Positions 55,541-61,356 of a stretch of 64,000 nucleotides of DNA are shown piece by piece; within the stretch, counting starts at the first letter, position 1, and every line of letters starts with the position of its first letter. The DNA is from Pelagibacteraceae bacterium. GTDB taxonomy: Bacteria > Pseudomonadota > Alphaproteobacteria > Pelagibacterales > Pelagibacteraceae. The position numbers and the translations under genes are program-made. The stretch is from NCBI GenBank assembly GCA_008638225.1, contig VTPP01000003.1:1-64000 (forward strand). Reading direction: 5' to 3'. The notes beneath the pieces are model-generated. The model did not search any database, was not told where the DNA came from, and worked only from the letters and a program-made list of their open reading frames with translations.

Positions 55541-58500
55541 ATGTCTTTAAATAAATTTCAATTTAATCATTTAAAAATTCATACACAGTATTCCATATGT
55601 GAAGGTGCATTGAAAATTGCAGATTTATCTAGTTATTGTAAATCACACAACATTAATAGCGTAGGTATATCTGACTCATTTAATATGTGTGGTGTGTTAG
55701 AATTTTCTGAGGAAATTTCTAAAGTCGGTACCCAGCCCATCATAGGTACACAAATTAATTTTTCTTTTTCTCATAATAACCTTGAAAAAATTGGAAAAAT
55801 TTCTCTTATAGCCAAAAATATCACTGGCTACAAAAATTTGCTCAAGCTTTCCTCCAATTCCTACTTATCTATAGAAAAAAATCATGAACCTCACTGTGCA
55901 ATTGAAGAATTGATAAATCATTCTGAAGGCCTAATTGTTTTATTAGGAGGCTCACATTCTTTGATTTCTTCTTTAATTTTGAATAGCAACATTTCAGAGT
56001 GTGAGTTTTTAATTAACAAAATTATAATGAGTTATAAAAATAATGCCTATATTGAGATTCAAAGACATGGTGAGGCTCATGAGCCAGAACTTGAAGCAAG
56101 ACTCTTAAATCTTAGTACGAAATTAAACATTCCATTACTGGCAACACATGAGGTTTATTATTTAAACCAAGATATGCATGAAGCTCATGATGCATATATA
56201 TGCGTTGGTCAAAAAACATATGTAAGTGATACTAAGCGACTACGTTATTCAGATCAGCATTACTTAAAAAACGATACTGAAATGAGCGAACTTTTTACAG
56301 ATTTGCCTGAAGCATTAGAAAACAATAGAAATATTTCTTATAGATGCAGTTATAGGCCTCTTACAAATAAGCCTATGCTCCCAAATTTCAATACTGAATC
56401 CTCTAATGTAAATGATGAATTAAAATTACAAGCTAAGATTGGCCTAGAAAAAAAACTTAAAGATTTTATTTTAATAAATATCGAAGATCAAAACGAAGAA
56501 AAACTACTCACAAACAAATACGAGGAAAGACTAAATTACGAGGTTGAGATGATATCTAAAATGAAATTTTCCGGATATTTCCTTATAGTTTCTGATTATA
56601 TAAAATGGGCAAAAACTAATAATATCCCCGTTGGACCAGGTCGAGGCTCAGGTGCGGGATCTTTAGTTGCATGGTGTTTGTCTATAACTGATTTGGATCC
56701 AATAAAATTCGGTTTAATTTTTGAAAGATTTTTGAATCCAGATAGAATTTCAATGCCAGATTTTGATATAGATTTTTGTCAAGAAGATAGAGATAAAGTT
56801 ATTAATTACGTTAAGGATAAATACAAAAACAAAGTTGCTCAAATCATAACTTTCGGCAAACTCCAAGCCCGTATGGCTTTGCGTGATATTGGTAGAGTAA
56901 TAGGTTTGCCTTATGGAAGAGTTGATCAGCTTTCAAAAATGATACCTTTTGATCCATCGCGCCCTTTGTCCTTAGCAGAATCTGTTGCAATCGAGCCAAG
57001 AATTCAGGAGGCTCAAAAGGAAGATCCAGCGATAGATAAGTTAGTTAAATTAGCTTTAAAATTAGAAGGTTTGTATAGAAATATTGCAACCCACGCTGCT
57101 GGAATTGTTATTGGAGATAAAGATTTAACTGAAATTATCCCTCTTTACAAAGACCATGACTCAACAATTCCGATACCCGTAACTCAATTTGATATGAAGT
57201 GGGCTGAAGAGGCTGGATTAGTTAAATTTGATTTTTTAGGATTAAAAACACTAACTGTTATTAAAAAAACTATTAAGTTAATCAAAGAAGAGGGGACATC
57301 ATTAGATATTGAGAAAATTCCATTAGATGATCCAAAAACATTTGAACTACTTAGCTCTGGAGAAACAATGGGAATTTTTCAACTTGAGAGCTCAGGTATG
57401 AGAGATGTTCTTAAGCAAATGAGACCGAATAAATTTGAAGATATTATTGCATTAGTTGCTTTATACCGACCAGGACCAATGCAAAACATTTCCACATATA
57501 ACAATAGAAAACATGGATCTGAAAAACCAGATTATTTGCACCCAAAAATTGAAAATATTCTAAAAGAAACTTATGGGGTTATCATTTATCAAGAGCAGGT
57601 TATGCAAATTGCTCAAGCTTTATCTGGTTTTTCTGCTGGTAAAGCCGACATTTTAAGAAAAGCAATGGGCAAAAAAAAATCAGCAGAAATGGAAAGACAA
57701 AAAAAAGATTTTATAGAAGGAGCTGTCAGTAACAATATACCAAAAGATCAGGCAATATATATATTTCAATTAGTTGAAAAATTTGCACAGTATGGTTTTA
57801 ACAAAAGTCATGCTGCAGCGTATGCTTTAATAGCCTACCAAACTGCATATTTAAAAACACATTTCCCTTTAAGTTTTTTTTCTGCATCTATGAGTATGGA
57901 TATGTCCAATACAGATAAACTAAATCAATTTTACGAAGAGCTTAAAAGACTTTCTATTAAAATACATAATCCATGTATTAATAATTGTTACGCAGACTTT
58001 ATCCCAAAAAATAATACTATTTATTACGCTTTATCAGCAATCAAAGCGGTTGGATACGAGGCAATATCTAATGTTATTAAAGAAAGAGAAGAAAATGGAA
58101 AATTTAAATCAATAGAAGATTTTGTTAAAAGAGTTCATAGTAAAGATGTAAATAAACTACAGCTCGAGGGACTAATTAAAGCAGGTGCCTTTGATTGTTT
58201 AGATAATAACAGAAGTAAAATTTATAATAATGTTCCTGAATTGATAAAACAATCAAAGAATTACGATGAAAATTCCGAAGTAAATCAAATAAATTTATTT
58301 GATAGCCAAACAAATCAAGAATTTTTAATAAATTTTGAAGATTATCCAGCATGGAATGAGCAAGAAAAAATTAAAAGAGAGTTTGAGTCAATTGGTTTTT
58401 TCGTTAGTGATCACCCATTAAAAAATTACAAACAAGTATTGGAAAGTTACAATGTAATTAATTACCAAAATTTTGTTGAAAATGCAGGAGTAAGTGAATG

Positions 58501-58966
58501 CATGTTGTCAGGAACTGTAATGGCTATTCAAGAAAAGAAAACAGCAAAAGGAATGCCTTTTGCTATAGTTAAATTTAGTGATTTAAGCAGAATGTTTGAA
58601 TTTTTTATATTTTCTGAAGTTTTGATTTCAAATAGAGAAAAATTAATACCAGGAAAATCTTTTTTAATTAGTGTTAAAAGAGAAATGTTAAAAACAGGTA
58701 TTGAAAGAACTAACGTCTCTAGAATTTTCTTAATCGATGATATAAAAGAAAAAAATATTCGCAAACTTAATATACAAATTAAAGAAAGTGATAATCTAGA
58801 AATTCTTAAAAAAGAGATTATTAAAGAAGGAAAAACTTCAGTTTCTCTTAACTATATACAAAACGGTAGAAATTTTATTTTTAAATTTAAAAACGAAAAA
58901 AATTTAAACTCAGAATCGCTTAAAACCCTCGAGAATCATGGTTTTTTGACAAAAATTATCAATTAA
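55541..58966 (+). CDS. dnaE: DNA polymerase III alpha subunit
   Basis: Replicative DNA polymerase. The 1141 residues contain an N-terminal PHP domain (HLKIHTQYSICEGALKI onward), the catalytic palm with GPGRGSGAGSLVAW and PDFDIDFCQEDR (about residues 406-417, the active-site Asp pair), IATHAAGIVIG, the fingers with LYRPGPMQNI and QEQVMQIAQALSGFSAG, and FNKSHAAAYALIAYQTAYLK. The C-terminal OB domain starts near residue 980. A beta-clamp-binding site is not obvious. It is the last gene of the 22-gene run. Confidence 0.97.
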   Translation: MSLNKFQFNHLKIHTQYSICEGALKIADLSSYCKSHNINSVGISDSFNMCGVLEFSEEISKVGTQPIIGTQINFSFSHNNLEKIGKISLIAKNITGYKNLLKLSSNSYLSIEKNHEPHCAIEELINHSEGLIVLLGGSHSLISSLILNSNISECEFLINKIIMSYKNNAYIEIQRHGEAHEPELEARLLNLSTKLNIPLLATHEVYYLNQDMHEAHDAYICVGQKTYVSDTKRLRYSDQHYLKNDTEMSELFTDLPEALENNRNISYRCSYRPLTNKPMLPNFNTESSNVNDELKLQAKIGLEKKLKDFILINIEDQNEEKLLTNKYEERLNYEVEMISKMKFSGYFLIVSDYIKWAKTNNIPVGPGRGSGAGSLVAWCLSITDLDPIKFGLIFERFLNPDRISMPDFDIDFCQEDRDKVINYVKDKYKNKVAQIITFGKLQARMALRDIGRVIGLPYGRVDQLSKMIPFDPSRPLSLAESVAIEPRIQEAQKEDPAIDKLVKLALKLEGLYRNIATHAAGIVIGDKDLTEIIPLYKDHDSTIPIPVTQFDMKWAEEAGLVKFDFLGLKTLTVIKKTIKLIKEEGTSLDIEKIPLDDPKTFELLSSGETMGIFQLESSGMRDVLKQMRPNKFEDIIALVALYRPGPMQNISTYNNRKHGSEKPDYLHPKIENILKETYGVIIYQEQVMQIAQALSGFSAGKADILRKAMGKKKSAEMERQKKDFIEGAVSNNIPKDQAIYIFQLVEKFAQYGFNKSHAAAYALIAYQTAYLKTHFPLSFFSASMSMDMSNTDKLNQFYEELKRLSIKIHNPCINNCYADFIPKNNTIYYALSAIKAVGYEAISNVIKEREENGKFKSIEDFVKRVHSKDVNKLQLEGLIKAGAFDCLDNNRSKIYNNVPELIKQSKNYDENSEVNQINLFDSQTNQEFLINFEDYPAWNEQEKIKREFESIGFFVSDHPLKNYKQVLESYNVINYQNFVENAGVSECMLSGTVMAIQEKKTAKGMPFAIVKFSDLSRMFEFFIFSEVLISNREKLIPGKSFLISVKREMLKTGIERTNVSRIFLIDDIKEKNIRKLNIQIKESDNLEILKKEIIKEGKTSVSLNYIQNGRNFIFKFKNEKNLNSESLKTLENHGFLTKIIN

Positions 58967-58971
58967 TACTC

Positions 58972-58999
58972 TTGATTTAAATTCTCATTCTTTTATAAG
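58972..58999 (+). promoter_or_regulatory. Promoter of the rpsB operon
   Basis: TTGATT (58972-58977), a 16-base spacer and TATAAG (58994-58999) make the best-looking promoter in this gap. Transcription would start near 59006, just ahead of the structured leader that begins at about 59015. A perfect TTGACA at 58946-58951 lies inside the end of dnaE, but its best -10 spacing is poor. Confidence 0.5.
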
Positions 59000-59010
59000 A
59001 CTTAAAATTT

Positions 59011-59083
59011 CGCACGAAGAAAATGGCGTAAGCCCCCGGTCCTGAAAAGGTAGTTTCTTCGGTGGATTAACCGGAAATAAATT
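59011..59083 (+). promoter_or_regulatory. Structured rpsB leader RNA, candidate S2 autoregulatory element
   Basis: A perfect 8-bp stem CGAAGAAA (59015-59022) / TTTCTTCG (59054-59061) encloses two short hairpins with GNRA tetraloops: GGC-GTAA-GCC (59025-59034) and CCT-GAAA-AGG (59041-59050). Between them, CCGGT (59036-59040) can pair with ACCGG (59070-59074), just downstream of the stem and 9 bases before the ATG, making a pseudoknot over the ribosome-binding region (GGA at 59073-59075). This is GC-rich for the genome. Leader autoregulation by S2 is known in other bacteria; for this RNA it is inference. Confidence 0.6.
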
Positions 59084-59875
59084 ATGAACTTACCAAGCGT
59101 TACAATTAAAGATCTATTAGAAGCTGGAGTACACTTAGGACACAAAACTTTTAGATGGAACCCTAAAATGAAACCTTTCATTTTTGGTGAAAAAAACTCA
59201 GTACACATAATCGATTTATCTCAAACATTAGAACTCTTAAATAGAGCATTATTAGAAATACACAAATGCGCATCCAATAGAGGTAAAATACTTTTTGTAT
59301 CAACAAAAAAACAAGCATCTGAGCTTGTTGCGAATGTTGCTAAAGAAACAAATAATTTTTATGTCAATCATAGATGGTTAGGAGGTATGTTAACTAATTG
59401 GAACACCATTAATCAGTCTATTAAAAGATTAAAAAAAATAGAAGAAGATCTCAAGCTAGAAGACACTGGCTTTACAAAAAAAGAACTCATTAAGATGAGC
59501 ATGGAAAAAGACAAGCTCGAAAGGTCTTTAGGTGGGATAAGTAATATGAAAAAATTACCAGATATGATTTTTGTGATAGATACAAATATAGAATCTTTAG
59601 CTGTTCTTGAGGGTAAAAAACTGGGAATTCCTATTGTAGCAATAGTAGATAGTAATTCAAATCCTGAAAATATTAACTTTCCAATACCAGGAAATGATGA
59701 TGCCAGAAGATCGATTAGTTTATATTGCGATTTAGTTCAAAAAACTATTTTAGATGCACAATCTAAAATGAACAACGATAAAGATGAAAAAGAAGAAGTT
59801 TCTGAAATTTCAGAAACTATTCCATTTGTAGAAGAAAAAGAATCTTCTGACACAAAAGAAAAAACTATCAATTAA
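59084..59875 (+). CDS. rpsB: 30S ribosomal protein S2
   Basis: Small-subunit protein near the mRNA exit side. The 263 residues start LPSVTIKDLLEAGVHLGHKTFRWNPKM (seen as LLEAGVHLGHKTFRWNPKM), with VNHRWLGGMLTNWNTI and PIPGNDDARRSI typical of S2. The C-terminal tail is acidic and Glu/Lys-rich. It heads the operon rpsB-tsf-frr-uppS-cdsA-dxr-bamA, with 8 bases to tsf. Confidence 0.98.
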   Translation: MNLPSVTIKDLLEAGVHLGHKTFRWNPKMKPFIFGEKNSVHIIDLSQTLELLNRALLEIHKCASNRGKILFVSTKKQASELVANVAKETNNFYVNHRWLGGMLTNWNTINQSIKRLKKIEEDLKLEDTGFTKKELIKMSMEKDKLERSLGGISNMKKLPDMIFVIDTNIESLAVLEGKKLGIPIVAIVDSNSNPENINFPIPGNDDARRSISLYCDLVQKTILDAQSKMNNDKDEKEEVSEISETIPFVEEKESSDTKEKTIN

Positions 59876-59883
59876 TTTTTTCT

Positions 59884-60786
59884 ATGAGTATTTTTGAAAA
59901 AGTTAAAGAGTTAAGAGACATTACCGGTGCTGGAATGCAAGATTGTAAAGTTGCATTATCAGAAAACAGCGAAGATATAGATTTAGCAATCGAATATTTA
60001 AGAAAAAAAGGTATTGCGAAAGCTGCAAAAAAATCTGATCGAGGCGCTTCTGAAGGTTTGATAACTATATTCAATTCAGGATCAAAATCATCAATTGTTG
60101 AAATAAATTCAGAGACAGATTTTGTAGCCAAAAATCCAGAATTTAATTCTTTCTGTGAAAAAATTTCATCTTTATGCGCCACTTCAAAAGACATGATGGA
60201 TTTAAAAGAAAAAAAATTCAATGAAAATGAAACTGTTTCATCTGCATTAATTAATCTAATTGCAAAAATAGGTGAAAATATTCAAATAAGAAGGTTTGAA
60301 AATATTGATCTTGGATGTGATATAGTTAGTTATATTCACAATAAACAAACAGATTGTTCTGGAAAGTTGGGTGTTTTATTGGCCTACGACTCAAAACACG
60401 AAAATGCCAAGGTTTTTGCAAATCAAATATGCATGCACATAGCTGCATCATCTCCACTTTCGTTAGACGAAACAGGTATCAGTCAATCTTTTTTAGAAAA
60501 TGAAAAAAATATAATGAAAGATCAGTTATTAAATGAAGGAAAAAAAATTGAAATGATTGATAAAATTATCTTAGGAAAACTTTCTAAAATTATAAAAGAC
60601 AATACATTACTTGGTCAAAAATGGGTTATGAATCCAGAATTATCAGTTAATATGGCAATAAAAAATTTTGAAGATGAAAATAAAGCTTCTTTTGTTATTA
60701 AACAATTTGTTAGATATAAAGTAGGTGAAGGTATTGAAAACAAAAAGTCGGATTTTGCTGAAGAAGTAAAAAATTTAACAAAGTAA
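59884..60786 (+). CDS. tsf: Translation elongation factor Ts
   Basis: Exchanges GDP for GTP on EF-Tu. The 300 residues show the N-terminal UBA-like domain with LRDITGAGMQDCKVAL, EYLRKKGIAKAAKKSDRGASEG, the core motif EINSETDFVAKNPEF and HIAASSPLSLD. Next comes frr after only 9 bases, without the pyrH gene that usually lies between tsf and frr. Confidence 0.98.
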   Translation: MSIFEKVKELRDITGAGMQDCKVALSENSEDIDLAIEYLRKKGIAKAAKKSDRGASEGLITIFNSGSKSSIVEINSETDFVAKNPEFNSFCEKISSLCATSKDMMDLKEKKFNENETVSSALINLIAKIGENIQIRRFENIDLGCDIVSYIHNKQTDCSGKLGVLLAYDSKHENAKVFANQICMHIAASSPLSLDETGISQSFLENEKNIMKDQLLNEGKKIEMIDKIILGKLSKIIKDNTLLGQKWVMNPELSVNMAIKNFEDENKASFVIKQFVRYKVGEGIENKKSDFAEEVKNLTK

Positions 60787-60795
60787 AATTTTTTT

Positions 60796-61356
60796 ATGAC
60801 TACTAATTCAAAGCTAATTGCTTTTGAGCAAAAAATGAAAACTACTTTGCAAAGCCTTGTTCAGGATTTGTCATCAATAAGAACGGGGCGTGCACATGTG
60901 TCTATGCTTGATCTCATAAGAGCCGAAGTTTATGGTCAAAAAATGCCACTAAATCAATTGGCAAATATCTCAACACCAGAATCTCAAATGTTAACAGTCC
61001 AAGTCTGGGATGCAAATAACGTCAAATTTGTTGAAAAAGCTATCCGAGAATCGGATCTAAATGTTAACCCAGCAGTAGAGGGGCAGATTATTAGAGTTCC
61101 AGTCCCTAAATTATCTGAAGAGAGAAGAAAAGAACTTATCAAAATTGTTAAAAATCAATCCGAAAAAATAAAAATATCTATAAGAAATATTAGAAGAGAT
61201 GGAATGGATGCTCTTAAAAGTTTTTTAAAAGATAAAAATATCACTGAAGATGAAAATAAAAAACTATCAGATGAATTACAAAAAATTACAGATAAATTTA
61301 TTATTGAAATTGATAAAAAAATTACCGACAAAGAACAAGAAATTTTAAAAGTATGA
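60796..61356 (+). CDS. frr: Ribosome recycling factor
   Basis: Splits the post-termination ribosome with EF-G. The 186-residue protein has LSSIRTGRAHVSMLDLI, NQLANISTPESQMLTVQVWD, VPVPKLSEERRKELIKIV and RNIRRDGMDALK, all characteristic. It overlaps uppS by 4 bases. Confidence 0.98.
   Translation: MTTNSKLIAFEQKMKTTLQSLVQDLSSIRTGRAHVSMLDLIRAEVYGQKMPLNQLANISTPESQMLTVQVWDANNVKFVEKAIRESDLNVNPAVEGQIIRVPVPKLSEERRKELIKIVKNQSEKIKISIRNIRRDGMDALKSFLKDKNITEDENKKLSDELQKITDKFIIEIDKKITDKEQEILKV

Follow-up and report, generated by a model that had tools for sequence, protein, structure and literature searches.

The short leader that precedes rpsB in the window, a 64,000-nucleotide stretch of Pelagibacteraceae DNA, is the published rpsB motif, a cis-acting leader at the 5′ end of the rpsB-tsf mRNA that has already been described. 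RF01815 (rpsB) was identified as its sole convincing match in Rfam, at full length, covering 59011-59092 with 29.7 bits (E = 3e-4), and a preceding sequence-only reading had correctly supposed that the leader might match an RNA motif already proposed for marine Alphaproteobacteria (PMC2704228; RF01815). We consider it probable that a promoter just past dnaE yields an RNA with this leader, and that, by homology with E. coli, excess ribosomal protein S2, perhaps together with S1, binds the fold and blocks initiation.

Locus and structure of the rpsB leader

The genes are arranged in the order dnaE - leader - rpsB - tsf - frr - uppS. The upstream neighbour dnaE occupies 55541-58966. On the forward strand, rpsB (59084-59875; Pfam PF00318, E = 3e-88) is the regulated gene and encodes S2, the presumed repressor, and the second gene of the operon, tsf (59884-60786; Pfam PF00889, E = 2e-59), encodes elongation factor Ts. 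The start codon of rpsB was read from the sequence as the ATG at 59084, and the encoded S2 is 87% identical to that of L001, a Pelagibacteraceae record on which the placement of the genome as a Pelagibacter relative is based.

A putative sigma-70-type promoter lies on the forward strand at 58972-58999 and comprises TTGATT (58972-58977), a 16-nt spacer and TATAAG (58994-58999), with 9 of 12 consensus matches. There are 11 nt from the end of TATAAG to P1, and the predicted transcript is expected to start at about 59005-59007. A final G in the second hexamer kept the site off the list of the consensus scan, and a fixed-hexamer scan over the relatives was uninformative (mean best score 8.6 vs 8.3 in shuffles). 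A looser pattern, TTG-N18-20-T[AG][TA]A[AG], occurs in 31 of the 47 leaders from the order; in shuffles, which ignore relatedness, it occurs in 2 on average and in 6 at most. Having been fitted by eye to these same relatives, it carries less weight than a pattern obtained independently would. No terminator-like site was found within 58850-59150. This result, the 9 nt to the start codon and the place of the element before rpsB in the genomes examined argue against a free small RNA, a very unlikely reading that draws on how Rfam types RF01815 and RF00127 ('Gene; sRNA'), a database label only.

A separate observation concerns the genes further downstream. The bacterial UMP kinase gene pyrH is absent between tsf and frr (window 60786-60796), and in the sister family it stands close downstream of rpsB. 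At E <= 1e-30, pyrH was found in 0 of 37 genomes of the window's family, complete ones included, and it scored above cut-off in 19 of 24 sister-family genomes. The genome holds a cmk match and a UMP/CMP-kinase-family match below cut-off at C8:48183-48809, the latter of which may be only an adenylate kinase. Among the papers searched, none names Pelagibacter, UMP kinase and pyrH together.

The leader stands out in its composition as first noticed, with a GC content of 0.53 at 59011-59074 vs 0.29 in the window, a value reached or exceeded in only 0.02% of 64-nt stretches. All of its elements lie on the forward strand. The fold is closed by P1, whose 5′ strand (59011-59022, assigned from the RF01815 alignment, the fold and pair counts) pairs with a 3′ strand (59054-59064) that runs into the conserved GGNGG element (59061-59065). 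The 8-bp stem proposed earlier (59015-59022 with 59054-59061) is present, and the RF01815 alignment and the energy model extend it outside the bulged A59014 by C59011-G59064, G59012-U59063 and C59013-G59062, where 59011-59013 form the outer C-R-C part; two further outer pairs are added by the energy model. Within P1 lie P2 (GGC-GTAA-GCC, 59025-59034) and P3 (CCT-GAAA-AGG, 59041-59050), and J2-3 holds the 5′ strand of the pseudoknot, CCGGT (59036-59040). Its complement ACCGG, the 3′ strand (59070-59074), ends 9 nt before the start codon, and this complementarity, too, is as originally read. The two GNRA hairpins of the sequence-only reading are both present here, but its emphasis on them is unsupported, as the loops change freely among relatives. 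Conserved GNRA receptors were rejected, the loops being GNRA in some relatives and not conserved.

Family assignment and comparative support

With 29.7 bits, the leader stays below the RF01815 gathering score of 40 bits, which is a database cut-off and not a biological feature. Searching 148 genomes with RF01815 gave matches at E <= 0.001 in 57 and none above the cut-off (0/148), and the matches in relatives occur once per genome, just before rpsB. The Rfam cut-off hides the rpsB element throughout this order. Meyer 2009 (PMC2704228) described the motif from Cand. Pelagibacter ubique, where it lies in the dnaE-rpsB gap; P2 has 3 bp there, P3 is very short, and J2-3 forms a pseudoknot with the 3′ extension. 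The following features of the motif are found: the element lies directly upstream of rpsB, here and in relatives; a long P1 with 94% of its cells paired closes a three-stem junction; P2 (3 bp) and P3 (2-3 bp) are variable and often short; and 98.7% of the cells of the 5-bp pseudoknot CCGGT/ACCGG are paired across the order. Our leader has in common with the motif of Meyer 2009 and RF01815 the gene, the dnaE-rpsB gap, P1, short P2 and P3, and the 5-bp pseudoknot of J2-3 with the 3′ extension after P1. P3 can form 3 bp here and 2 bp were described for Cand. P. ubique, and nothing essential differs.

Rfam RF00127 (t44), the rpsB leader of Gammaproteobacteria and the S2 operator of E. coli, gave no match in this leader; it was found in 6 of 6 gammaproteobacterial rpsB leaders tested, 5 of them above its cut-off. 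Both leaders share the position before rpsB-tsf, the place of the pseudoknot, the GGNGG element and an AAC at the pseudoknot strand, whereas the pseudoknot is GGGGT/ACCCC in t44 and CCGGT/ACCGG here. Judged from the same gene and the same pseudoknot position, the rpsB and t44 families appear to be the alpha- and gammaproteobacterial versions of a single leader. In Rfam, the two families are both typed as sRNA and share no clan. Other ribosomal protein leaders (the S15, S4, S8, L1 and L20 operators) exert autogenous control, several via a pseudoknot near the start codon. The likeness to these would lie in the autogenous control of a ribosomal protein operon; the protein, the structure and the gene differ.

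The folding energy of the leader is unremarkable compared with shuffled sequence (z = 0.24; 113 of 200 shuffles give an equally good or better fold). Energy-based significance was therefore rejected as evidence for the fold, and the support for the structure is comparative. An energy no better than that of shuffles would suit a fold that arose by chance in GC-rich intergenic DNA. This explanation can practically be dismissed, given the covariation and the position seen in about 50 leaders from the order and in some 80 other Alphaproteobacteria, and the paired-cell and covariation test refuted it. Among 46 distinct leaders of the order, 93.4% of cells pair, compared with 80.0 ± 0.8% in shuffles and 32-51% in slid controls, and the covariation score is 0.373 (46 rows) vs 0.150 ± 0.010 in shuffles and at most 0.106 in slid controls. 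No shuffle or slid control reaches either value. As the structure to which the alignment was fitted omitted the pseudoknot, the counts for P1-P3 lean somewhat towards it, and the shuffles ignore relatedness.

A covariance model (R1) was built from 31 distinct aligned leaders of the window's family, with the sister family left out. R1 found a hit just before rpsB in all 52 sources of the order, including the sister family, with E-values from 4e-9 to 0.02. Among other alphaproteobacterial loci, 42 of 82 match at E <= 0.1, the best being L190 (1e-8). This locus scores 41.4 bits with R1 and 40.3 bits with RF01815, above the cut-off of the latter; being found by both, it links the two models.

At the level of single pairs, two-sided changes occur at 9 of 11 P1 pairs across the order. 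The innermost P1 pair (59022/59054) is weak, being unpaired in 16 of 44 relatives, and the middle outer pair is non-standard in 8 of 44. P2 has 83% of its cells paired, with two-sided changes at 3 of 3 pairs and a variable loop; in the short and variable P3, the two outer pairs alone are general. The pseudoknot strands are nearly invariant, and no covariation is available for them within the order. One complete same-genus genome (G005, leader L083) carries ACCGA for ACCGG and loses the outermost pseudoknot pair.

Variation of the pseudoknot was found in the wider class. In other Alphaproteobacteria, CCGGT is held by 66 of 66 distinct leaders with ACCGG (the strand also of L138 and L146), and seven of 12 variants carry the exact complement (L010, L132, L151, L153, L177, L178 and L189), where 8-10% per leader would be expected by chance. 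These do not count as seven independent events, because L132 and L151 belong to the same genus. Judged by eye, the remaining five (L006, L152, L192, L195 and L196) have retained the older partner and form a G-U pair with it. Among gammaproteobacterial leaders, GGGGT accompanies ACCCC in 41 of 41, and eight ACCCT leaders have no exact five-base partner. The check for homologous leaders that keep the sequence and lose the pairing, raised with the sequence-only reading, was favourable: P1 covaries in the order and the pseudoknot in the wider class.

Position of the pseudoknot and proposed control by S2

From the end of the pseudoknot strand to the start codon there are 4-12 nt in this order (medians 8 and 9 in the two families), a median of 16 nt in other Alphaproteobacteria and a median of 21 nt (15-26 nt) in Gammaproteobacteria. 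A Shine-Dalgarno core, taken as GGAG, GAGG or AGGA, lies downstream of the pseudoknot strand in 57 of the 58 Gammaproteobacteria and in 71 of the 81 other Alphaproteobacteria. In the window's family (f1), 2 of 31 leaders have a core in this position and 26 of 31 lack one altogether. The sister family (f2) has no downstream core in any of its 14 distinct leaders; in all 14, a GGAG overlaps the pseudoknot strand itself. With the 16S 3′ end taken from relatives (TGGATTACCTCCTTTCT), as it was not found in this assembly, 40 window genes taken together gave no Shine-Dalgarno signal (median -0.5 vs background -0.3 kcal/mol); 'ribosome-binding site' here therefore denotes a position and not a Shine-Dalgarno sequence. 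Short spacing is also found in a few other Alphaproteobacteria (L010, L138, L162, L176 and L180), so this state is not unique to the order. At the other extreme, L178 (1-501) has 79 nt from the pseudoknot strand to the start codon, far above the other leaders examined, and this gap contains an apparent A/T-rich hairpin.

We tentatively suggest that the S2 leader may have been shortened in this order, with the pseudoknot strand replacing a separate Shine-Dalgarno core at the ribosome-binding position, and that S2 control may be direct competition at the initiation site. If true, S2 control in the order would be simpler than the mechanism described for E. coli.

In E. coli, S2 represses rpsB-tsf via the homologous leader, and S1 is required for the full effect (PMC10931766; PMC2704228). 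The ribosome-binding site lies outside the operator there, and the mechanism of repression is called unclear in a 2024 review (PMC10931766). Direct occlusion may thus not be the mechanism, and S2 could instead bind the leader and repress without covering the ribosome-binding site, for instance by trapping an initiation complex or recruiting S1 away from it, the pseudoknot being only part of the S2 binding surface. The need for S1 in E. coli would fit such a route. So would the fact that the structure is conserved although 15-26 nt separate the pseudoknot from the start codon in Gammaproteobacteria, and although a Shine-Dalgarno core follows the pseudoknot in the majority of the Gamma- and other Alphaproteobacteria sampled. 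We hold this route to be rather doubtful in the order, where the strand lies 4-12 nt before the AUG and occlusion would be direct. Because of this strand position, occlusion at the start site is the most likely step here.

We consider it unlikely that the leader, instead of being an S2 operator, responds to S1, EF-Ts or a metabolite, or that it serves to stabilise the mRNA or as a ribosome standby site. EF-Ts is encoded in the same operon, S2 is assigned as the ligand here by homology to the E. coli leader, and the conserved GGNGG resembles a Shine-Dalgarno core that is too far upstream for direct use. Against these points, the homologous E. coli leader is S2-dependent (PMC10931766; PMC2704228) and the position before rpsB is nearly universal. 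Control of the leader by S2 is most likely, by homology.

For the mechanism that we favour, S2-mediated blocking of initiation, the analysis shows the position, the family match, a conserved and covarying structure and a conserved promoter-like sequence; from these and from E. coli we infer which ligand binds, in which direction expression changes and that the start site is occluded. The promoter just downstream of dnaE would start the RNA a few bases before P1, and the three stems, of which P2 and P3 are short, would fold with the CCGGU-ACCGG pseudoknot into an S2 recognition site. S2 in excess over 30S subunits would recognise this site, perhaps with S1, for which the genome holds an rpsA-like (S1-like) gene whose match is below the model's curated cut-off. 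Bound S2 would stabilise the pseudoknot, the 3′ strand of which is inside the ribosome footprint, 9 nt before the AUG; initiation would be blocked, and the synthesis of S2 and EF-Ts would fall.

Collectively, the genome-scale data confirm the 2009 proposal in its lineage of origin and add compensatory changes in the pseudoknot. With its compact leader and a pseudoknot at the initiation site, the order would offer a clean place for testing S2 autorepression.
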